Shown: positions 2,155 through 15,171 of the stretch, in pieces
Numbering within the stretch: the stretch's first letter is position 1
Layout: the number at the start of each line of letters is the position of its first letter
From: Limnohabitans sp. Rim8
GTDB lineage: Bacteria > Pseudomonadota > Gammaproteobacteria > Burkholderiales > Burkholderiaceae_C
DNA length: 34,659 bases
Direction of reading: 5' to 3'
NCBI GenBank assembly: GCA_945901045.1
Contig: CAMDKK010000042.1
Location: forward strand, 1 to 34,659
Position numbers and translations under genes: made by a program
Notes under the pieces: model-generated
The model's input: the letters and a program-made list of their open reading frames with translations, nothing else
Databases searched by the model: none
What the model was told of the DNA's origin: nothing

Positions 2155-2195
2155 GCTGATACTTGTCATCAGCTTGAACTTCAATTCAAGTTTTT
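2155..2195 (+). terminator. Tandem hairpins with a T tract between pirin and Spy-like genes
   Basis: Two stems adjoin. GCTGAT/ATCAGC spans 2155-2173 with a 7-base loop. CTTGAA/TTCAAG spans 2173-2190 with a 6-base loop and is followed by five T at 2191-2195. The second has the form of a weak intrinsic terminator for the pirin transcript. Because it ends only 19 bases before the Spy-like start codon, it could instead be a structured leader of that gene. Confidence 0.4.
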
Positions 2196-2214
2196 GAACA
2201 TGAAAAGGAACACC

Positions 2215-2724
2215 ATGAAACGCCATCACATTCTGATTTCTGCCAGTCTGTTGCTTGCTTTGAATACTTTTGCGCAAAGTGCGCCTGTCGCTGAGTCCCA
2301 AATACCAGCTGCAGATATGGGCCATATGCACAACCTAGGATTGATGCAAAAAATACGGGATATGAAGGGTCTTCGTCATGCCCAACACTTGGAAGCGCTC
2401 AAAACCACTTTAAAAATCCTGCCCGAACAAGACAGCAAGTGGGCTGCATTTGCCAACAGCATGAAACCAACGGGGCCACGCCAAGACAAGCGGTTTTTAG
2501 AAGACATAGACAGACTGACCACACCTGAACGCATCGACAAAATGATGGCCTTCAAGGCACAACGTGATACAGAATTGAACAAACGCGCAGAGGCCACTAA
2601 AACGTTTTATAACGTTTTAACAGAGGATCAGAAAAAAATATTTGACCAACATACGACCAAAATCATGGGCAAGATGGCACACAAGCAATCCGGTGGCCAT
2701 GAGAACATGATTCGAAACAATTAG
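2215..2724 (+). CDS. Spy/CpxP-like periplasmic LTXXQ-motif protein
   Basis: The 169-residue product starts with a signal peptide (MKRHHILISASLLLALNTFAQ, cleavage probably near residue 22) and continues as a highly charged, predicted all-helical protein. It carries LTEDQ near its C terminus, the LTXXQ signature of the Spy/CpxP family of periplasmic chaperones and stress sensors. The start at 2215 is chosen over an in-frame TTG (2194) and ATG (2200) because AAAGGAACACC places a good ribosome-binding site directly before it. Known relatives bind unfolded envelope proteins and are induced by envelope stress or copper; no regulator is adjacent here. Divergence within the family is high, so the family is fairly sure and the exact role inferred. 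Confidence 0.75.
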   Translation: MKRHHILISASLLLALNTFAQSAPVAESQIPAADMGHMHNLGLMQKIRDMKGLRHAQHLEALKTTLKILPEQDSKWAAFANSMKPTGPRQDKRFLEDIDRLTTPERIDKMMAFKAQRDTELNKRAEATKTFYNVLTEDQKKIFDQHTTKIMGKMAHKQSGGHENMIRNN

Positions 2725-2728
2725 TTTT

Positions 2729-2751
2729 GAAATGCTTTAAAAAAGCATTTC
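2729..2751 (+). terminator. Perfect hairpin after the Spy-like gene
   Basis: Ten perfect base pairs (GAAATGCTTT with AAAGCATTTC) enclose a three-A loop, starting five bases after the stop codon. The T-rich tail is poor, so termination strength is uncertain. It also marks the left border of the origin-like region. Confidence 0.5.
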
Positions 2752-2812
2752 ATCATTGCTGATTTGGTATAAAAATCAAAAGCCACAAAATTTTAAATTT
2801 TTTGTATAAGCT

Positions 2813-2821
2813 TGTGGATAA
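2813..2821 (-). promoter_or_regulatory. Perfect DnaA box
   Basis: TGTGGATAA on the + strand is the exact complement of TTATCCACA. It is inverted relative to the box at 2841-2849, with 19 bases between them, and lies next to the weaker box at 2801-2809. Confidence 0.75.
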
Positions 2822-2840
2822 ATAGACTTGAAAAAACAAG

Positions 2841-2849
2841 TTATCCACA
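2841..2849 (+). promoter_or_regulatory. Perfect DnaA box
   Basis: TTATCCACA is an exact match to the consensus DnaA box. Together with the inverted copy at 2813-2821 it forms the left cluster of the origin-like region. Confidence 0.75.
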
Positions 2850-2958
2850 ACTTTCTCTAAAAATAAAAAGTTGTTCATTTTGCGGGTACAAAGCGAAACA
2901 CTGTCTTGCACAAGATTCAAAACCAGTTAAGTACTTGAAAAATAACAGAGTATTGCCC

Positions 2959-2967
2959 TTGTCCACA
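2959..2967 (+). promoter_or_regulatory. Near-consensus DnaA box
   Basis: TTGTCCACA differs from the consensus at one base. Its position, 18 bases before the CTA repeats and in the same orientation as the + box at 2841, is what a DnaA-trio unwinding module requires. Confidence 0.55.
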
Positions 2968-2985
2968 GGGAAGTGCATTCCTTAT

Positions 2986-2997
2986 CTACTACTACTA
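2986..2997. promoter_or_regulatory. DnaA-trio-like CTA repeat
   Basis: Four tandem CTA units occur (TAG on the complementary strand), followed by TCTTTATTTAAAAG. DnaA-trios are repeated 3'-GAT-5' trinucleotides that load DnaA on one strand during origin melting. The orientation relative to the DnaA box at 2959-2967 is correct for this. Confidence 0.6.
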
Positions 2998-3077
2998 TCT
3001 TTATTTAAAAGAATAAGAGATAAAGAAGGGACAACAGTCGCTGGTAAAATTTGGCATCTTCAAAGTTTATTGGGTAC

Positions 3078-3857
3078 ATGTTGTCAGCTTCCGATCCAAG
3101 CACATCTGTCGGTTATGAAATCAAGAGCGCTGACCTGGCACTGGTTGCTTTGTTGCTGAAAACTTCCAATATCGACACATTGAAACGCGAGTTAAGAAAA
3201 CAACTCGCAGACACGCCCGATTTTTTTGACCAAGAACCCGTTGTGATTGATCTGATTGGATTGTCAGAACATGAAAAAAATCAGCCCATTGACTTTGACC
3301 AATTGTTGGCTCTGTTACGTTCCCATCAAATGCATCCTATCGCCTTGCGCTCTGGCACAACATATCACATGCAAGCAGGAAAAAATGCCGGCTTGATCGA
3401 CGCCACATACGCTCGTATTTTGAAAACAACGGTTGCTGTTGCATCACCCCAAGCAACTTCTGCTGCTGCACCCATTCCCGTCAAGACACGTGAAACACCA
3501 ACGGGTTCTTTGGGTGCATTGGTGGTTGATAAACCGCTTCGATCGGGTCAGCAGGTGTATGCAAAAGGCCGTGATTTAGTGGTACTGGCTATGGTCAATC
3601 CAGGCGCTGAGGTCATTGCCGATGGCAATATCCATGTGTATGCAGCGCTTCGTGGAAAAGCCATTGCAGGCGCTAAAGGCAACAGTGAAGCCATGATATT
3701 TGCACAAGCTATGGAGCCTGAATTACTCTCCATTGCAGGTGTCTACAGGACCAGTGAAAATGCATTACCGACCGACATTTGGGGTAAAGCAGCGTATGTT
3801 CGCTTGAAACCCAGCCCAGAAGGTGAAAAATTGGTGATACAAGCACTGAAAGCCTGA
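3078..3857 (+). CDS. minC: Septum site-determining protein MinC
   Basis: MinC blocks FtsZ ring assembly away from midcell and is carried to the membrane by MinD. The 259-residue product has an N-terminal FtsZ-inhibiting domain (from about YEIKSADLALVALLLK, residue 13, to about residue 105). A linker rich in alanine and proline follows, then the C-terminal beta-helical MinD-binding domain with RSGQQVYA, the GAEVIADGNIHVYAALRG turn and AGAKGN. An in-frame TTG at 3051 would add nine residues, but neither start has a clear ribosome-binding site; the ATG at 3078 is chosen because the family usually begins just before the EIKS strand. It is the first gene of minCDE and lies immediately right of the origin-like region, so that region also contains its promoter. 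Confidence 0.93.
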   Translation: MLSASDPSTSVGYEIKSADLALVALLLKTSNIDTLKRELRKQLADTPDFFDQEPVVIDLIGLSEHEKNQPIDFDQLLALLRSHQMHPIALRSGTTYHMQAGKNAGLIDATYARILKTTVAVASPQATSAAAPIPVKTRETPTGSLGALVVDKPLRSGQQVYAKGRDLVVLAMVNPGAEVIADGNIHVYAALRGKAIAGAKGNSEAMIFAQAMEPELLSIAGVYRTSENALPTDIWGKAAYVRLKPSPEGEKLVIQALKA

Positions 3858-3910: not shown

Positions 3911-4726
3911 ATGACAAAAATAGTTGTTGTGACTTCCGGTAAGGGGGGTGTGGGGAAAACCACCACCAGCGCCAGTTTCGCTACAGGCTTGGCCCTTCGT
4001 GGCTTTAAAACCGTTGTGATTGATTTTGATGTGGGTCTGCGCAATCTGGACTTGATCATGGGCTGTGAGCGCCGTGTGGTGTATGACTTCATCAATGTGA
4101 TTCAAGGTGAAGCCAACCTGAACCAAGCACTGATCAAAGACAAGCAATGTGAAAATCTTTTCGTGCTCGCGGCATCGCAGACACGCGATAAAGACGCTTT
4201 GAGCCACGATGGCGTTCAGAAGGTTTTAAACGATTTGGCTGGGATGGGCTTCGACTACATCATTTGCGACTCTCCTGCGGGCATTGAAACGGGTGCATTG
4301 ATGGCTATGCACTTTGCAGACGAAGCATTGATCGTGACCAACCCGGAAGTTTCGTCGGTACGCGATTCAGACCGTATTTTGGGTATGTTGGGCAGTAAAA
4401 CGAAGCGGGCTATTGAAGGATCGGACCCCATTAAGGAACATTTGTTGATTACCCGCTACAACCCCAACCGGGTGGAAGACGGCCAGATGCTGTCGCTGCA
4501 AGATATTCAGGACATCTTGCGCGTCCCCTTGATTGGGGTGATTCCTGAAAGTGAAAACGTTTTGCAAGCTTCCAATCAAGGCACACCCGCGATTCACATG
4601 AAGGGTGCGGATGTGTCTGAAGCTTACAAAGATGTGATTGACAGATTTTTGGGAGAAGAAAAGCCACTTCGTTTTACCGAAGTGGAAAAAACAAGTTTTT
4701 TCAAGCGTCTTTTTGGAGGCAAATAA
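3911..4726 (+). CDS. minD: Septum site-determining ATPase MinD
   Basis: MinD is the membrane-cycling ATPase that recruits MinC and is driven off the membrane by MinE. The 271-residue protein has the deviant Walker A motif SGKGGVGKTTT with both lysines (K11 and K16), a switch I region with D38 and D40 (VVIDFDVGLRNLD), and Walker B ending at D120 (IICDSPAGIE). The C-terminal membrane-targeting amphipathic helix is clear as KTSFFKRLFGGK. Its length equals that of the usual gram-negative MinD. It follows minC by 53 bases and precedes minE by three, as expected for one transcript. Confidence 0.98.
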   Translation: MTKIVVVTSGKGGVGKTTTSASFATGLALRGFKTVVIDFDVGLRNLDLIMGCERRVVYDFINVIQGEANLNQALIKDKQCENLFVLAASQTRDKDALSHDGVQKVLNDLAGMGFDYIICDSPAGIETGALMAMHFADEALIVTNPEVSSVRDSDRILGMLGSKTKRAIEGSDPIKEHLLITRYNPNRVEDGQMLSLQDIQDILRVPLIGVIPESENVLQASNQGTPAIHMKGADVSEAYKDVIDRFLGEEKPLRFTEVEKTSFFKRLFGGK

Positions 4727-5226: not shown

Positions 5227-6210
5227 ATGATCAATCGGCGTCAAGGTATTGCTGGCTTGGGTGGCCTTAGTCTGCTGGGTGTAAAAGCGCTGTGTGCGCA
5301 AACACTTTCTGGCCCACCCATCAGTTTGATCGTCCCACAACCGGCGGGCAACCCCACCGATATCCTGGCCAGAAGGTTGCAGTTCGCCACACAGCGTGAA
5401 CTCGGTCAGGCTATCGTGGTCGAAAACCTGCCTGGCGCTGGAGGTTCATTGGGTGTCAATAAAATGTTGGCGAGTCCTGTGGCCTCGCCGGTGTTGATGA
5501 TCGCTTCGCAAACCGAATCCATATTGACACCTCTGTCTGTTCGCGCTGCGCGTTACACCAGTGAGCGTTTGCGCCCAGTGCTGCTTATCACAAGAGCCCC
5601 TTATATTTTATTAGGCCGCGCGGATTTGCCTGCACGCCATTTGGGTGAACTTGTCAAATTGGCACGCAATCAACCTTCTCGTCCTTTGACGTTTGGGCAT
5701 ATTGGGAACGGGTCCATGATTCATCTGTTGGGTGAACGACTTGCACGAAAGACTGGAATATCATTGACGCAAGTGCCTTACAAAGGGGTGCCACCCGTGC
5801 TCCAAGATTTGATCGGCGGGCAGATAGATCTGACCTTCGTGCCCCAAAGTGCCGTTCGAGATTTGGTGGCATCGGGCAAGGTGAAAGTGTTTGGGACGAC
5901 CGCTGCCAACACGTCAGAAAAAATACCAGAAGCGTTTCCTATTTCAAAATCCGAGCCTGTACTTTCGGATTTTATTCATGGCACATGGGGTGCGATTTTT
6001 GTGGCAAGGACCTTGCCAGAGGAACAGGTGCTTCGCTTGCACAAAGCCTTGACCGCCGCCTGCCATCAAACTCAATTTCAATCGCAGACCCTGGCCAGCG
6101 GCAGCGAACCGGCGCCACCCATGACTTTGAGTGAGTTGGAACGTTTCTTTGATGAGGAGACCATTCTGTACCATGCCATGGCGCGTGAGATAGGTATTCA
6201 GCCTGAATGA
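5227..6210 (+). CDS. Tripartite tricarboxylate transporter substrate-binding protein (Bug family)
   Basis: The 327-residue protein is a periplasmic receptor of the Bug/TctC family, which captures organic acids or amides for TctAB-type transporters. After an N-terminal signal with a twin-arginine-like start (NRRQGIAGLGG), it shows the family pattern: ISLIVPQPAGNPTDILARRL, VVENLPGAGGSLGVNKML, the LTQVPYKGVPPVLQDLIGGQIDLTF block and a C-terminal helical region. The usual PFxxGGxTD loop is changed to PQPAGNPTD, which may alter ligand contacts. A ribosome-binding site (AAAGGTG) precedes the ATG. No tctA or tctB is in the window, so it is an orphan receptor, as is common in this order. It is transcribed toward the oxidoreductase gene, with a hairpin between them. 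Confidence 0.92.
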   Translation: MINRRQGIAGLGGLSLLGVKALCAQTLSGPPISLIVPQPAGNPTDILARRLQFATQRELGQAIVVENLPGAGGSLGVNKMLASPVASPVLMIASQTESILTPLSVRAARYTSERLRPVLLITRAPYILLGRADLPARHLGELVKLARNQPSRPLTFGHIGNGSMIHLLGERLARKTGISLTQVPYKGVPPVLQDLIGGQIDLTFVPQSAVRDLVASGKVKVFGTTAANTSEKIPEAFPISKSEPVLSDFIHGTWGAIFVARTLPEEQVLRLHKALTAACHQTQFQSQTLASGSEPAPPMTLSELERFFDEETILYHAMAREIGIQPE

Positions 6211-6293: not shown

Positions 6294-9200
6294 TCAGGTA
6301 TTGAATTTCGCCATCAAAACGGACCATTGCATGCGCGCAGCTTTCACGTTGCGCTCTTTCACGTGGCCAAAACCTTTGATCTGATCAGGTAGCCGCGCCA
6401 GCTCAAGTGCTAACCCATGGTTGTCGGCGCTCAATTGACCCAGCACAATAGACACACTGTTTTTGTATTCTTCTATCAAAGCGCGTTCCATTTGTCGTTC
6501 GTGTGTCCGGCCAAATACATCCAGCATGGTGCCTCGCAAAAACTTCAACCTTGACAACAATTTGAAACCAGTGAGCATGAAGGGGCCGAACTTTTTCTTG
6601 ATGAGTTCGCCTTTGTCATTGGTCTTTGATGTCAGAGGCGGCGCCAGATGGTAGTTCAAGGTGAAATCACCTTCGAACATGCCATTGACGCGTGACAAAA
6701 AGCCTGTATCCGTGTGCAGGCGTGCAACCTCATATTCATCTTTATAAGCCATTAACTTGAACAGATAACGGGCCACACTTTCAGTCAAAGAAGTCTTTCC
6801 CAATGCCGATTCAACCTGTTGCACTTGCGTTAAAAAAGCAAGATAGTTTTGCGCATAAGCGGCATTTTGGTAATCGGTCAAAAAGGCCACGCGCCGCTCA
6901 ATCAGGGTGTCAAGCGACTCGCGTTTTTTGAATTCAATCACCTGTGAAGGTGCCAGGATGCGCTGAACAGCCGCCGCATCGTGAGCGGCGTGACGACCCC
7001 ATTCAAAGGCATCTTGGTTGTTCTGTACTTGAACGTCATTGAGTGCCATGGCGCGCAAGATGCTTTCTCGGGTCAATGGAATCCATCCCTTTTGCCACGC
7101 ATAACCCAAAATCATCGGGTTGACATAGATGGTGTCGCCCATCAACTGATTGGCCATCGCATCGGCATCAAACGCACCCACCAAAGCCACGCCAACCGTT
7201 TGGCTGATTTCTGCCAAACATTGCTCAGCCGGGTTTTCCCAGTTGCCGTTTTTGACAAAAGCAGCGGTAGGTGAACCATGTGAGTTCAAGGCAACGTGCG
7301 TGCGGCCTTCACGCATGCGCAAAGCGGTTTCTTTGCTGGCGGTGACGATAGGATCGCATCCAATGATCAAATCAGCTGCAGCCATGCTCACACGCGTGGT
7401 GCGAATGTCATCTTGCGTATTGGCAATCAACACATGACTCCAGGTCGCCCCTCCTTTTTGGGCCAATCCTGCCGCATCTTGCGTGATGATGCCTTTGCCG
7501 TCGATGTGCCCAGCCATGCCCAGCAACTGTCCGATGGTGATCACACCGGTGCCGCCAACACCTGCTACCACCACGCCATAGGCTTGTGAGATGAGGGGTA
7601 ATGTGGGTTCAGGCAATGCGCCCAAGCCAGCAGGCGTGACGGTTTTTGATTTGGATTTCTTTTTCAGCTGTCCGCCTTCAACCGTCACAAAACTGGGGCA
7701 AAAGCCTTTGAGGCAACTGGTGTCCTTGTTGCACGTGCTTTGGTTGATGGTGCGTTTGCGACCAAACTCGGTTTCAAGGGGCTCCACCGACAAACAGTTG
7801 GATTGCACGCCGCAGTCGCCACAACCCTCGCAGACGAGCTCATTGATTACCACACGCACGGCAGGGTCCACCATGGTGCCGCGTTTGCGGCGACGCCGCT
7901 TTTCAGTGGCGCATGTTTGGTCGTAAATGATGACGGTGCACCCTTTGATCTCCCGCATTTCACGCTGGATGCGGTCGAGCTCTTCGCGGTGATGCACCGT
8001 GACGCCTTCGGCCAAAGCAACGCCATCGTATTTTTCAGGTTCATCTGTGACGACATTGATGCGCAAAGCGCCTTCAGCACGCATGCTTTGGGCAATTTGC
8101 ACCACACTGTGGCCCTCAGGGCGCTCGCCCACCTGCTGGCCCCCCGTCATGGCCACGGCGTCGTTGTAGAGAATTTTGTAAGTGACATTGACACCGGCCG
8201 CGATGCTTTGCCGAATAGCCAGCATGCCACTGTGGAAATAAGTGCCATCGCCCACGTTGGCAAACATGTGCTGATCGTGGCTGAAGGGTTGTTGCCCTAC
8301 CCAAGGTACACCTTCTCCGCCCATTTGCGTGAAGCCCACTGTGCTGCGGTCCATCCACACACTCATAAAGTGGCAACCTATGCCCGCCATCGCGCGCGAA
8401 CCTTCGGGGACGCGCGTGGAGGTGTTGTGCGGACAACCGGAGCAAAACCAAGGTGTGCGTTCACCGATGGTGTTGATGTTTAAAATCTGCAATGATTTTT
8501 CTTTGGCGTTAATGATGGCCAATTGCGAATCCATGCGCGCCGTGATGTCGGCATCAAGGTCCAGTTTTTTCAGTCGTTTGGCCAAAGCTTTGGCAATCAA
8601 GGCAGGCGTCAAATCCGCATTGGCCCGCAACAAGGTATGGCTGTGGGGGTTCTGGTGTGACCATTCACCGCCAGAGGTTTCCCCGTCTTGTTCGTCGAAT
8701 TTTCCGAGTACTCTGGGTCGTACATCATCGCGCCAGTTGTAGAGCGCTTCCTTGATTTGGTATTCGATGAGTTGGCGTTTTTCCTCGACCACCAAAATCT
8801 CTTTCAAGCCGGTGGCAAATTCGCGCGTCGAATGTGATTCGAGTGGCCAGACTACCCCGACTTTGTGCACCCGAATGCCCAGACGTTGGCAAGTGGCATC
8901 GTCCAAGCCAAGATCGAGCAAGGCTTGGCGGGTGTCGTTGTAGGCCTTGCCGCTGGCGATGATGCCAAACCGGTCGTTCGGCCCTTGAACCACATTGTGG
9001 TTGAGCTTGTTGGCACGAATATAGGCCAATGCCGCATACCATTTGTAATCGAACAGGCGGGCTTCTTGGTCAAGGGCGGGGTCTGGCCATCGGATGTGGA
9101 TACCACCTGCGGGCATGTCGAATTCGGGCAGGATAATTTTCACGCGGTGGGGGTCGATCTGTGCGGTGGCACTGGACTCCACAATTTCCTGAATCGTTTT

Positions 9201-9833
9201 CATGCCCGACCAGATGCCTGCAAAGCGGCTCAGCGCAATCCCGTGGACGCCCATGTCCAAGACATCTTGGACCGAGGCGGGGAAAAAAACCGGTAAACCA
9301 CAGGCTTTGAAAATATGGTCACTTTGGTGCGCGGCGGTCGAGCTTTTGGCCACATGGTCGTCTCCCGCGACCGCCAATACGCCGCCCCAAGGCGTGGTAC
9401 CCGCCATGTTGGCGTGCTTGAATACATCCGAGCAGCGGTCCACACCAGGACCTTTGCCATACCAAATGCCAAATACGCCGTCAAAGCGGTTGCTGCCAGC
9501 AGGCGCAAACCCCAGCTGTTGCGTCCCCCATAAAGCGGTGGCGGCCAATTCCTCGTTGACCCCAGGTTGGAACACAATGTTTTGCGCTTGCAAATAGGCT
9601 TTGGCTTTCCAAAGCGACTGGTCATAGCTGCCCAATGGCGAGCCGCGATAGCCACTGATGAAGCCCGCGGTGTTTTTGCCTTGCAAAGCGTCACGCTGAC
9701 GTTGCAACATCGGTAATTTGACCAAGGCTTGCACGCCACTCATGAAGGCGTGACCTGTGTCTAAGCTGTACTTGTCGTCCAGGGTGACGGTTTCAAGTGC
9801 TTTGCGAATCGAATCGGGAAGTGGGGCGTTCAT
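6294..9833 (-). CDS. Fused indolepyruvate ferredoxin oxidoreductase
   Basis: This 1179-residue enzyme fuses the subunits of archaeal-type 2-oxoacid oxidoreductases. It is expected to oxidise arylpyruvates (from tryptophan, phenylalanine or tyrosine) to arylacetyl-CoA, passing electrons to a ferredoxin. The N-terminal half carries the thiamine-diphosphate domains (SGYRGSPLGSYD near residue 50; CSGCPHNTSTRV near 465). A cysteine cluster CEGCGDCGVQSNC near 665 and further cysteines (CNKDTSCLKGFC) suit iron-sulfur centres. The gamma-type domain begins at GVVVAGVGGTGVITIGQ near 750, and a C-terminal DUF6537-like region follows from about 980. The frame is open to a GTG at 9863, but the ATG at 9833 has a GGAG about seven bases upstream. 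It is divergent from an Lrp-type gene, a common arrangement for amino-acid catabolic genes. Confidence 0.92.
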   Translation of the reverse strand: MNAPLPDSIRKALETVTLDDKYSLDTGHAFMSGVQALVKLPMLQRQRDALQGKNTAGFISGYRGSPLGSYDQSLWKAKAYLQAQNIVFQPGVNEELAATALWGTQQLGFAPAGSNRFDGVFGIWYGKGPGVDRCSDVFKHANMAGTTPWGGVLAVAGDDHVAKSSTAAHQSDHIFKACGLPVFFPASVQDVLDMGVHGIALSRFAGIWSGMKTIQEIVESSATAQIDPHRVKIILPEFDMPAGGIHIRWPDPALDQEARLFDYKWYAALAYIRANKLNHNVVQGPNDRFGIIASGKAYNDTRQALLDLGLDDATCQRLGIRVHKVGVVWPLESHSTREFATGLKEILVVEEKRQLIEYQIKEALYNWRDDVRPRVLGKFDEQDGETSGGEWSHQNPHSHTLLRANADLTPALIAKALAKRLKKLDLDADITARMDSQLAIINAKEKSLQILNINTIGERTPWFCSGCPHNTSTRVPEGSRAMAGIGCHFMSVWMDRSTVGFTQMGGEGVPWVGQQPFSHDQHMFANVGDGTYFHSGMLAIRQSIAAGVNVTYKILYNDAVAMTGGQQVGERPEGHSVVQIAQSMRAEGALRINVVTDEPEKYDGVALAEGVTVHHREELDRIQREMREIKGCTVIIYDQTCATEKRRRRKRGTMVDPAVRVVINELVCEGCGDCGVQSNCLSVEPLETEFGRKRTINQSTCNKDTSCLKGFCPSFVTVEGGQLKKKSKSKTVTPAGLGALPEPTLPLISQAYGVVVAGVGGTGVITIGQLLGMAGHIDGKGIITQDAAGLAQKGGATWSHVLIANTQDDIRTTRVSMAAADLIIGCDPIVTASKETALRMREGRTHVALNSHGSPTAAFVKNGNWENPAEQCLAEISQTVGVALVGAFDADAMANQLMGDTIYVNPMILGYAWQKGWIPLTRESILRAMALNDVQVQNNQDAFEWGRHAAHDAAAVQRILAPSQVIEFKKRESLDTLIERRVAFLTDYQNAAYAQNYLAFLTQVQQVESALGKTSLTESVARYLFKLMAYKDEYEVARLHTDTGFLSRVNGMFEGDFTLNYHLAPPLTSKTNDKGELIKKKFGPFMLTGFKLLSRLKFLRGTMLDVFGRTHERQMERALIEEYKNSVSIVLGQLSADNHGLALELARLPDQIKGFGHVKERNVKAARMQWSVLMAKFNT

Positions 9834-9919
9834 CAGGGGGCTCCAACGTATGACGATAGTCACTCAGTGTAGAACCTCTGGTTTGACAGGTGCTTGCTTT
9901 ATGTGACAGGACTTGCCCT

Positions 9920-10422: not shown

Positions 10423-10522
10423 ATGCGGCAAAGGCAAGCAGTTCATCAATTGTGTTTGTAGAAAAATGCAGATAGACTTTATCGAATGCTTGTGTTCAAG
10501 CAGCAGTCAAGAAAGGACAAAG

Positions 10523-11506
10523 ATGTTAAGAATCGCCATGAAAGCGTTCATTCTTCTCGCATTGGCAGGAGTCACAAGCATCACGGCTGCGCAAAATACA
10601 AATGCGTATCCAACCAAGCCGATCACCATGATCGTCCCATTTCCACCCGGTGGCGTGACGGATCTGGTGGCCCGTGAGTTGGCCAAGCGATTGAGCGAGG
10701 GATTGGGCCAGCCCGTGGTGGTCGACAACCGTGCGGGAGCCGGTGGCAATATTGGAACGGCGGTATTGGCAAGAGCGCAGCCCGATGGTTACACCCTGGG
10801 TGTGATGACGGTCAGTGCCATGTCCATTGCTCCCCACATTCAAAAATCCTTGAGTTTTGTACCCGCTAAAGACTTCACGCCCATCACCAATATTGTCAAT
10901 ACACCGGGTGCTGTTTTGGCAGGCATTAAAACCCCTTACAACTCGCTTCCAGATTTGGTGAAAGCCGCCAAAGCCCAGCCCGGGAAAATCAGTTATGCCA
11001 GTGTGGGGCTTGGTTCGTTGCCCCATTTGATTGCCGAGAAACTGTCGCTAGATGCCGGTATCAGCATGGTGCATATCCCTTACAAGGGCGCAGCACCGGC
11101 CATGCAGGATTTGCTCGCTGGCGTGGTTGATTTGTCATTTGAAAGCGCGCTCACCAATACGGTTGCAAACTACAACGCTGGGCGATTGAAAGTCCTGGCC
11201 ACCACGGGCTCTAAACGGGTTCCTATTCTCAGCAACATACCCACTGTTTCAGAGTCTGGATACCCCGGGTTTGTCGCGCAAGGCTGGTTTGGTTTTTTTG
11301 GCCCCGCTGGTTTGCCGCCTGCTGTCACCAAGCGCTTGAATGAGATTGCGACGAGCATGCTCAGAGACAAGGCCGTAGTGGAAAAATTCGACAACTTGGG
11401 CATTCAAGCTGACCCCTTAACGCCCGAGCAATTTGTGAAGTTTTTACAAGAGCAAGATCGGATTTGGGCGACCACCGCAAAAGGCTTGAACTTACAGCTT
11501 GATTAG
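10523..11506 (+). CDS. Bug-family substrate-binding protein paired with an aromatic hydroxylase
   Basis: This 327-residue periplasmic receptor is a canonical Bug/TctC protein: signal peptide (MLRIAMKAFILLALAGVTSITAAQ), YPTKPITMIVPFPPGGVTD, VVVDNRAGAGGNIGT, MVHIPYKGAAPAMQDLLAG and GWFGFFGPAGLPP. The ATG at 10523 is selected because GAAAGGA lies at 10511-10517 and the signal peptide starts there; the longer frame from 10466 adds 19 residues that do not look like a signal. It follows the Lrp-type gene by 100 bases and precedes an MhpA-like hydroxylase by 120 bases on the same strand. This suggests it imports the substrate or a related aromatic acid. The ligand cannot be read from sequence. Confidence 0.93.
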   Translation: MLRIAMKAFILLALAGVTSITAAQNTNAYPTKPITMIVPFPPGGVTDLVARELAKRLSEGLGQPVVVDNRAGAGGNIGTAVLARAQPDGYTLGVMTVSAMSIAPHIQKSLSFVPAKDFTPITNIVNTPGAVLAGIKTPYNSLPDLVKAAKAQPGKISYASVGLGSLPHLIAEKLSLDAGISMVHIPYKGAAPAMQDLLAGVVDLSFESALTNTVANYNAGRLKVLATTGSKRVPILSNIPTVSESGYPGFVAQGWFGFFGPAGLPPAVTKRLNEIATSMLRDKAVVEKFDNLGIQADPLTPEQFVKFLQEQDRIWATTAKGLNLQLD

Positions 11507-13232: not shown

Positions 13233-14192
13233 TTACATCTTGATATTGGCCTGTTTGATCAGCTTTCCAAATCGCTCAAAATCTTGTTTATTGCGTTTGC
13301 TAAATTCATCTGGTGAGATGTTGCCTGGCTCGCCCCCAAGGCCCTTGAGTTTGGCTTGAACATCTGGCAACTTGATGATGCGGGCCAGTTCATTTTGAAG
13401 TTTAGTCACAACATCTGAGGGCGTGCCAGCCGTAACAAACACGCCGTACCACGTGCTCATTTCAAAACCCGCCACGCCAGCTTCTGCAAGGGTGGGCACA
13501 TCGGGCAACTCAGCCGATCGTTGAGGGGTGGTCACGGCAAGGGGCTTGAATTTGCCCGCCTTGATTTGGCCCATGGCGGAAGAGGTGGTGTCAAACATCA
13601 TTTGCACGTTACCAGCGATGATGTCCAAATGGGCCTGTGCGCTGCCTTTGTAAGGGATATGAATACTTTTTACACCGGCCGCAATGTCAAATCCTTCGCC
13701 CTCAATGTGTTGAGTGCTGCCCACGCCGGAAGAAGCGTATTTAAATTCTTCAGGTTTGGCCTTCATGAGCGCCACCAACTCTTTGACTGTGTTGGCCGGC
13801 ACATGGGCGCCTACCACCAGGACGTTGGGAACAGTGACCACCAAGCCAATGGGGGTTAAGTCTTTGATGGGGTCAAAGGACAACTTGATCAAATGAGGGG
13901 CAATGGCCTGACCGGTATTGGTGGCCACCAGCAGCGTGTGGCCATCTGGGGCCGCCTTGGCGGTAAGGTCGGCCGCAATGGTGTTGGACGCGCCGGGTTT
14001 GTTTTCAACAATGAAGCTACCCTTTAAAGAGTCGGTCATTTTTTCTGCCAGCATCCGCGCGATGATGTCTGTTCCGCCGCCGGCACCGGCGCCCACCATC
14101 AGCTTCACGGGCTTGTTGGGAAAGGTGGTTTGTGCGTTTGCACTCAAGGTGCATATCAGCGTGGCAAGCACGCAAGCGATGAGTTTTTTCAT
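13233..14192 (-). CDS. Bug-family substrate-binding protein downstream of pdxA2
   Basis: This 319-residue Bug/TctC receptor starts with a signal peptide (MKKLIACVLATLICTLSANAQ) and shows FPNKPVKLMVGAGAGGGTDIIARML, VENKPGASNTIA, IHIPYKGSAQAHLDIIAGNVQMMFD and a GVAGFEMSTWYGVF block. The PFPPGG loop is replaced by GAGAGGG. The ATG at 14192 has a GGAGAT five bases upstream and agrees with the signal peptide; the frame is open further upstream only into the pdxA-like gene. It lies 22 bases after pdxA2 on the same strand and is very probably cotranscribed with it, so its ligand is probably the precursor of the PdxA2 substrate. Confidence 0.93.
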   Translation of the reverse strand: MKKLIACVLATLICTLSANAQTTFPNKPVKLMVGAGAGGGTDIIARMLAEKMTDSLKGSFIVENKPGASNTIAADLTAKAAPDGHTLLVATNTGQAIAPHLIKLSFDPIKDLTPIGLVVTVPNVLVVGAHVPANTVKELVALMKAKPEEFKYASSGVGSTQHIEGEGFDIAAGVKSIHIPYKGSAQAHLDIIAGNVQMMFDTTSSAMGQIKAGKFKPLAVTTPQRSAELPDVPTLAEAGVAGFEMSTWYGVFVTAGTPSDVVTKLQNELARIIKLPDVQAKLKGLGGEPGNISPDEFSKRNKQDFERFGKLIKQANIKM

Positions 14193-14214
14193 GGCATCTC
14201 CTTTGTATATGGGG

Positions 14215-15171
14215 TCAGGCAATATGTTGGGTGACTCTTCGGTGGTGCAGGCCCATGCGGCAAGCCAACTCAAAAGCATTCAACATCGCTTGAGGGTTGG
14301 CCACGTTTTTGCCGACTATGTCATAGGCCGTTCCGTGGGCCGGTGTGGTGATGGGGAAGGGCAATCCGCCATGCACTGTGACGCCTTTTTCAAAGCCCAT
14401 GAGTTTCATGGCTATTTGGCCTTGGTCGTGGTACATGGTGACAACACCGTCATAGCCGCCGTCCTGCCGAATGGCGCGAACAAAGGCGGTGTCGGCAGGA
14501 AAGGGGCCTTCGGCGGGTAGGCCTGCGGCCCTTGCCATTTCAACGGCTGGTGCAATGATTCTGATTTCCTCATCTCCGTAATTGCCGTTGTCCCCGTTGT
14601 GAGGATTGAGTCCGCAGACAGCCAGGCGGGGTGACGCTTTGCCAGATGCTTTTAAAGCATTGCAAATCATTTCTATGGACTCAAAAACCTTGTGGATTGA
14701 CAGCAAGCTACTCACTTCCTTGAGCGGTATGTGAGAGGTGACGCGAGAAGTCCAGAGGTCTTGCAGAACGTTCAATTCCCCACACACACCCTTGTAAGCC
14801 AGGAACTCTGCAAACCAACGCAACTCGTCTTCTTGGTGCATGCCACCCAAACGAAGCGCTGTTTTGTTCAGTGGCGCAAAGCAAAAAGCATCGGCTTGGC
14901 CGTCGCGCACCAAGGCGGCCCCTGCTGCCAGCGCGTCCAGCATGTAAGCGCCATTGCGTGTACTTGCCGTGGCGGTTGGAAAAGCGGGGGTGTTGTAACC
15001 CGGCCAGTCGTGCCACTCCACGTTGGCAGGCGTTTGAATACGGCCCTTTTGGCCGATCAAAATGACGCGACCTGCCTTTTCCACGGAAGGGTTGAGCAGT
15101 AATTTTTGAACCAGTTCAGGCCCAATGCCTGCAGGATCGCCTGTAAATAATGCCAGGGTCGGCTTGTCCAT
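14215..15171 (-). CDS. pdxA2: PdxA-family dehydrogenase (PdxA2-like)
   Basis: This 318-residue enzyme belongs to the PdxA family of metal-dependent NAD(P) dehydrogenases acting on phosphorylated hydroxy acids or related diols. The metal-binding histidines are present: H147 (TSHIPL), H191 (LNPHNGD) and H248 (YHDQGQ). The substrate segment near the N terminus is GDPAGIGPEL, and TPAHGTAYDIVGKN follows near 276. The ATG at 15171 has a GGAGA just upstream. A catabolic role is favoured over pyridoxal-phosphate synthesis because the gene is paired with a transporter receptor and faces a GntR regulator. Catabolic relatives include 4-phospho-threonate/erythronate dehydrogenases, usually with a DUF1537 kinase, and TphB of terephthalate breakdown. 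Neither partner kinase nor dioxygenase is in the window. Confidence 0.85.
   Translation of the reverse strand: MDKPTLALFTGDPAGIGPELVQKLLLNPSVEKAGRVILIGQKGRIQTPANVEWHDWPGYNTPAFPTATASTRNGAYMLDALAAGAALVRDGQADAFCFAPLNKTALRLGGMHQEDELRWFAEFLAYKGVCGELNVLQDLWTSRVTSHIPLKEVSSLLSIHKVFESIEMICNALKASGKASPRLAVCGLNPHNGDNGNYGDEEIRIIAPAVEMARAAGLPAEGPFPADTAFVRAIRQDGGYDGVVTMYHDQGQIAMKLMGFEKGVTVHGGLPFPITTPAHGTAYDIVGKNVANPQAMLNAFELACRMGLHHRRVTQHIA

Follow-up and report, generated by a model that had tools for sequence, protein, structure and literature searches.

The region of dnaA is the usual place of the replication origin in many bacteria, and oriC of Bacillus subtilis is located at dnaA-dnaN. Clusters of DnaA boxes also occur at DnaA-regulated promoters and at datA- or DARS-like sites. 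The genus Cupriavidus belongs, in the broad sense, to the same family as the host of the DNA considered here. An oriC situated away from dnaA has already been reported in this genus: according to the published account, the GC-skew switch of chromosome 1 of Cupriavidus metallidurans CH34 is located about 90 kb from dnaA-dnaN-gyrB and adjoins a 213-nt region containing three perfect DnaA boxes, and dnaA of this strain has one perfect box upstream (PMC2864759). A second relevant system is the basal unwinding system of B. subtilis oriC, in which a DnaA box is followed by repeated 3'-GAT-5' trios. The published search rule for such systems calls for at least three trios (3'-NAN-5') no more than 16 bp from a DnaA box, with spacer lengths peaking at 10-13 bp (PMC8287927).

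Here we describe the gap upstream of minC in a window of 34,659 bp, which is one whole contig (C42) of a draft genome of 126 contigs and 4.01 Mb. Sequence comparison makes it very probable that this gap is the chromosomal oriC of a freshwater, Limnohabitans-like bacterium (Comamonadaceae). It is well supported by these comparisons as a real oriC, apparently ordinary in kind, unusual and shifting in place. The locus resembles the CH34 origin in its position away from dnaA, in having a box-rich region at the skew switch and in the single box upstream of dnaA, whereas minC, trios and a family-wide module are unmentioned in the available passages on that origin (PMC2864759). Within the titles, abstracts and some passages of the literature surveyed, we found no paper that places oriC beside minC; DoriC may hold predictions for these genomes.

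Sequence elements upstream of minC

The features of the gap and its flanking genes are as follows (window coordinates; strand where one applies):

2194..2724, + strand: LTXXQ-family gene, the left neighbour, its transcription directed at the module
2725..3077: intergenic region with putative oriC, 353 bp, 31% GC; the right end assumes a minC start at ATG 3078
2761..2812: AT-rich tract on the left flank of the boxes, 21% GC; the alignment of 35 modules shows no conservation of it
2796..3048, + strand: match to model R1 of the family-wide origin module, E 1.9e-38
2801..2809, - strand: one-mismatch box TTATACAAA (consensus TTATNCACA); not conserved in the alignment of relatives
2813..2821, - strand: DnaA box 1, TTATCCACA, perfect; retained within the genus
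2841..2849, + strand: DnaA box 2, TTATCCACA, perfect; nearly invariant across the 35 aligned modules
2870..2879, + strand: conserved GTTGTTCATT, from the alignment of modules
2959..2967, + strand: DnaA box 3, TTGTCCACA, one mismatch; adjoins the presumed unwinding site
2986..2997, + strand: CTACTACTACTA, four CTA triplets, DnaA-trio-like (3'-GAT-5' on the other strand); conserved in relatives
2998..3045: AT-rich stretch, presumed from its composition to be the DNA unwinding element
3051..3857, + strand: minC (PF03775, PF05209); TTG start at 3051 in the ORF list
3911..4726, + strand: minD, with ParA/MinD-type domains; minE next; minD/minE features under the DNA match

The original prediction described a gene-free element with a pronounced AT-rich tract, two perfect inverted DnaA boxes and two one-mismatch boxes, and all of these are recovered. 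There are no likely genes between the end of the LTXXQ-family gene at 2724 and the start of minC, either at 3051 or at ATG 3078, which is perhaps the true start. The GC content is 21% over 2761-2812 and 31% over 2725-3077, and the starts of the two perfect boxes are 28 bp apart. Both one-mismatch boxes (2801-2809 and 2959-2967) are obtained with the consensus TTATNCACA, and only that at 2959 with the strict TTATCCACA. The genes to the left of the element, three in number, are all on the + strand, as had been remarked. The CTACTACTACTA run, which starts 18 bp past box 3, was absent from the prediction. A 115-aa ORF with a TTG start (2812-3159), which overlaps the intergenic region, was taken as spurious.

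Neither two perfect boxes nor three boxes with up to one mismatch were encountered in any of 2000 first-order Markov copies of positions 2725-3050, and no other 300 bp of the window contain more than one box with up to one mismatch. The gap shows a feature that serves as a criterion for oriC, namely clustered DnaA boxes within DNA free of genes. Single-strand folding of the module was not notable (z -1.66), a promoter scan returned two sites against 1.7 expected, Rfam gave no match within 2300-3300, and in a distant blastn search against plasmids only the minD/minE part was matched.

The order of box 3 and the CTA run is that of the basal unwinding system, a DnaA box followed by trios, and the four triplets exceed the minimum of three, but the spacer of 18 bp is longer than the 16-bp limit of the search rule as published, and for this reason we do not class the element as a formal basal unwinding system (PMC8287927). 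At one related locus (L149) the spacer is 14 bp if TTA is counted. By analogy, the module may nevertheless work like such a system. There is also some likeness to oriC of Escherichia coli (NC_000913.3:3925744-3925975), which is near mnmG and in which a box continues into a comparable GGG-AGTGC-TCCT stretch, although E. coli has mnmG adjacent to oriC, whereas in the relative G006 this gene is about 5.7 kb from the module. The local alignment score of 35 falls within the range of 100 shuffles (maximum 37), so the likeness provides no evidence for shared descent.

The closest named relatives of MinC are found in Comamonadaceae metagenome bins and Limnohabitans strains, and the same-genus group is here taken to be Limnohabitans. 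Elsewhere in the window, positions 6294-9863 (- strand) encode a protein of 1189 aa with POR, TPP and DUF6537 domains that resembles indolepyruvate ferredoxin oxidoreductase, and three genes of the TctC type (tripartite tricarboxylate receptor) are located at 5227-6210, 10466-11506 and 13233-14279.

Conservation of the module in relatives

A sequence-only profile of the module of about 250 bp (model R1), built from 35 modules including that of the window, has matches in 197 of the 200 family genomes. The three genomes without an R1 match are also without a dnaA match, and these misses may therefore be assembly gaps. Outside the family, weaker matches (best E 9e-19) were found in 32 of 78 members of the order. 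In most modules box 3 is located at about +146, with the CTA run a further 24-32 bp on. Conservation of the boxes in relatives, which the original prediction had called for, is confirmed by the intergenic comparison. The inverted pair at 28-bp spacing is present at 24/24 same-genus minC loci and is missing from all five loci that represent other families in the order (L061-L065). With up to one mismatch it is found in 48 of 60 genus genomes, the window's own among them, and at one mismatch in 47 of the 200 family genomes. Among named contigs the pair is located no more than 900 bp upstream of minC in 20 of 78 loci (two of 80 having been left out), among them 8 of the 10 on contigs titled Limnohabitans.

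GC skew and parS sites

Skew was analysed by change-point analysis of contiguous stretches of 200-400 kb sampled from six relatives (G006, G033, G035, G013, G146 and G172). The best change point of the skew sign is within 10 kb of the module in five of the six and 48-73 kb off in one; it is never at dnaA, which is well inside the stretch in four of the genomes only, being at the edge in G172 and outside in G146. For example, the change point is at 334-340 kb in G006 (module at 343.3 kb, 3-10 kb apart), 375-379 kb in G033 (module at 377.5), 484-488 kb in G035 (module at 485.1) and 139-143 kb in G146 (module at 139.4). G172 has its best change point at 96 kb and its module at 101.9, with a wide support interval (49-100 kb) that stops short of the module. 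The change point of G013 is 48-73 kb from the module and 231-256 kb from dnaA. The skew of G013 is mixed between the switch point and the module (G013:C1:1217000-1284000), perhaps as a result of a recent rearrangement. Change-point permutations gave 0/300 in each of the six genomes, and 0/500 in two of them in an earlier run.

The genome of G006 is complete in one contig of 2,948,795 bp, from which 40 samples of 20 kb (800 kb) were taken. All nine samples from 60 to 340 kb have negative skew, the next 20, up to 1.8 Mb, are without exception positive, and all ten from 1.88 to 2.8 Mb are negative; the sample at 1-20 kb is positive, out of pattern. Apart from that sample, the skew turns positive once, at the module, and reverts once, between 1.80 and 1.88 Mb, nearly opposite the module; the exactly opposite point would be at about 1,818 kb. 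In the window itself the skew is -0.021 over the 2.8 kb to the left of the module and +0.027 over the 31.6 kb to its right. With this genome split into 126 contigs and so short a stretch on the left side, these values cannot settle the origin.

All six relatives have a cluster of parS-like sites (up to two mismatches) at a distance of 7-41 kb from the module: 7.4-10.5 kb in four genomes of the Limnohabitans group, 17-20 kb in G146 and 38-41 kb in G172. Such sites are absent from the rest of those stretches, from 580 kb sampled at other places in G006 and from the window, which extends only 2.8 kb to the left of the module. In G006 the genes mnmG, rsmG, parA and parB, a classical setting of origins, are 5.7-11.6 kb from the module, and in nine named loci of this group mnmG is within 10 kb of minC. 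Searches of the window for GidA (mnmG) and ParA gave no real match; however, its Aldolase_II gene (308-1093) is of the same family as the gene adjoining mnmG in G006, and the contig therefore probably breaks just before mnmG.

A chromosomal origin beside minCDE rather than dnaA, as originally predicted, is supported by the conserved boxes and by the skew of the tested relatives, in which the sign change falls near the module rather than at dnaA. The prediction was open to refutation by a skew minimum and a coverage peak elsewhere, such as at dnaA, together with boxes that were not conserved; the skew and conservation comparisons have been run, and it survives them.

Location of the module relative to dnaA

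The module of the window is not directly beside dnaA, as in origins of the dnaA-dnaN type; dnaA of this genome is on another contig (C45). In four same-genus genomes (G006, G033, G013 and G035) the two are 82-183 kb apart. Among the 200 family genomes, at least 120 have a module among the matches listed, and 96 of these also have dnaA listed, leaving 24 that cannot be classified and 80 in neither location count. Of the 96 classifiable genomes listed, 28 have the module immediately following dnaA, 16 have it immediately preceding minC and the remaining 52 have it at other places; in 33 of these 52 it is on the contig of dnaA, 7.6-259 kb off, and in 19 on another contig. One of the 24 unclassified genomes (G224, L266) has dnaA beside the module. 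In nine dnaA-type genomes examined, dnaN is on the other side of the module.

Two modules within about 10 kb of each other are found in at least 25 of the 120 family genomes listed, some in tandem and 300-600 bp apart, and it is possible that paired modules represent bipartite origins. In G119, two inverted copies flank minC. One same-genus genome has two oppositely oriented modules with about 5.5 kb between them (G068:C23:87238-87485 and 92978-93217). G179 has a module before minC and a second at the far end of the contig; assuming a circular contig, the latter would precede dnaA by about 260 bp (C1:4936244-4936475 and C1:14531-14784).

A tree of 24 DnaA proteins, from all 16 minC-type genomes, eight of the 28 dnaA-type genomes and none of the "elsewhere" type, requires five changes of location, two of them forced by well-supported branches. 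As 42 of 500 shuffles were as low, and a tree holding the minC group together was not rejected (p 0.103), repeated relocation of the module is suggested by these sequences, not shown.

min genes as neighbours of the probable origin

MinC matches are missing from 11 of 35 same-genus relatives, six of which are at least 97% complete, and the MinD-like proteins of these eleven are only distant (29-32%). The min genes are probably absent from a Limnohabitans lineage. The six more complete genomes, with no MinC match and distant MinD-like proteins, are G001, G006, G012, G020, G031 and G034.

These genomes bear on an alternative reading, that the boxes form a DnaA-binding control site, either a DnaA-regulated minC promoter or a titration or reactivation locus (datA-/DARS-like), and that the real origin is elsewhere. 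The boxes are directly before minC, and a single perfect box (C45:13441) is located 75 bp upstream of dnaA in this genome. However, all 11 same-genus genomes without a minC match retain the module, which therefore appears to be an origin merely adjoining minC and not a min regulatory site. The gene order of G006 (pirin, LTXXQ, DUF2788, module, indolepyruvate oxidoreductase) is that of the window minus minCDE and the TctC genes, and likewise argues against a site serving minC. With the module directly after dnaA in 28 of the 96 classified genomes and flanked by dnaN in the nine such genomes examined, with skew switch and parS both indicating the module, and with a single R1 match in the window's genome and no second one, we consider a control site very unlikely. 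minCDE is a neighbour of the origin and not a necessary part of it. The proposed coupling of initiation and division-site genes thus holds for position alone, given that the module is kept in 11/11 genomes without minC and follows dnaA in 28/96.

It is also conceivable that the rpmH-dnaA region is the active origin and the module beside minC a relic or secondary origin, as the perfect box at C45:13441 and the two modules of some relatives might suggest. This we regard as very unlikely: in the four same-genus genomes with dnaA well inside the stretch, the skew does not change sign at that gene, the skew on C45, the dnaA region of this genome, is weak and irregular, G000 has no R1 match at dnaA, and a relic would hardly remain so conserved. 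The window is one contig of a draft genome, which would also permit an origin belonging to a plasmid, a chromid or an inserted element. This is extremely improbable, as module and dnaA share one 2.95-Mb replicon in the complete one-contig G006, where mnmG and parAB are close by.

Proposed origin function and possible relocation

The chromosomal oriC reading draws comparative support from conservation of the module, its near-single-copy presence, the skew switch and the nearby parS cluster. From established work on DnaA, all three boxes would be expected to be bound by this protein, and the inverted pair of boxes 1 and 2 would contribute to its assembly. By analogy with the basal unwinding system, DnaA may extend from box 3 onto a single strand of the CTA repeat (DnaA-trios). 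DnaA would then open the AT-rich stretch beside the trios, and helicase would load for two forks.

A broader and tentative reading, which we think possible though not quite probable, is that oriC in this family is a fixed cassette of about 250 bp that has repeatedly changed position among a small number of sites (behind dnaA, in front of minC and elsewhere near mnmG-parAB), partly via two-cassette states. In Limnohabitans, its stay before minC would put origin opening and transcription of division-site genes on one stretch of DNA.

Genomes are often cut open at dnaA as the assumed start, which would here be wrong by about 80 to 180 kb. The occurrence of the module after dnaA, before minC and elsewhere within one family is a natural series for how origins relocate, and allows one to ask whether two-origin states are intermediate steps and whether proximity to minC is relevant. 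For the latter the genus gives a direct control, since some of its members have min genes at this origin and others do not.
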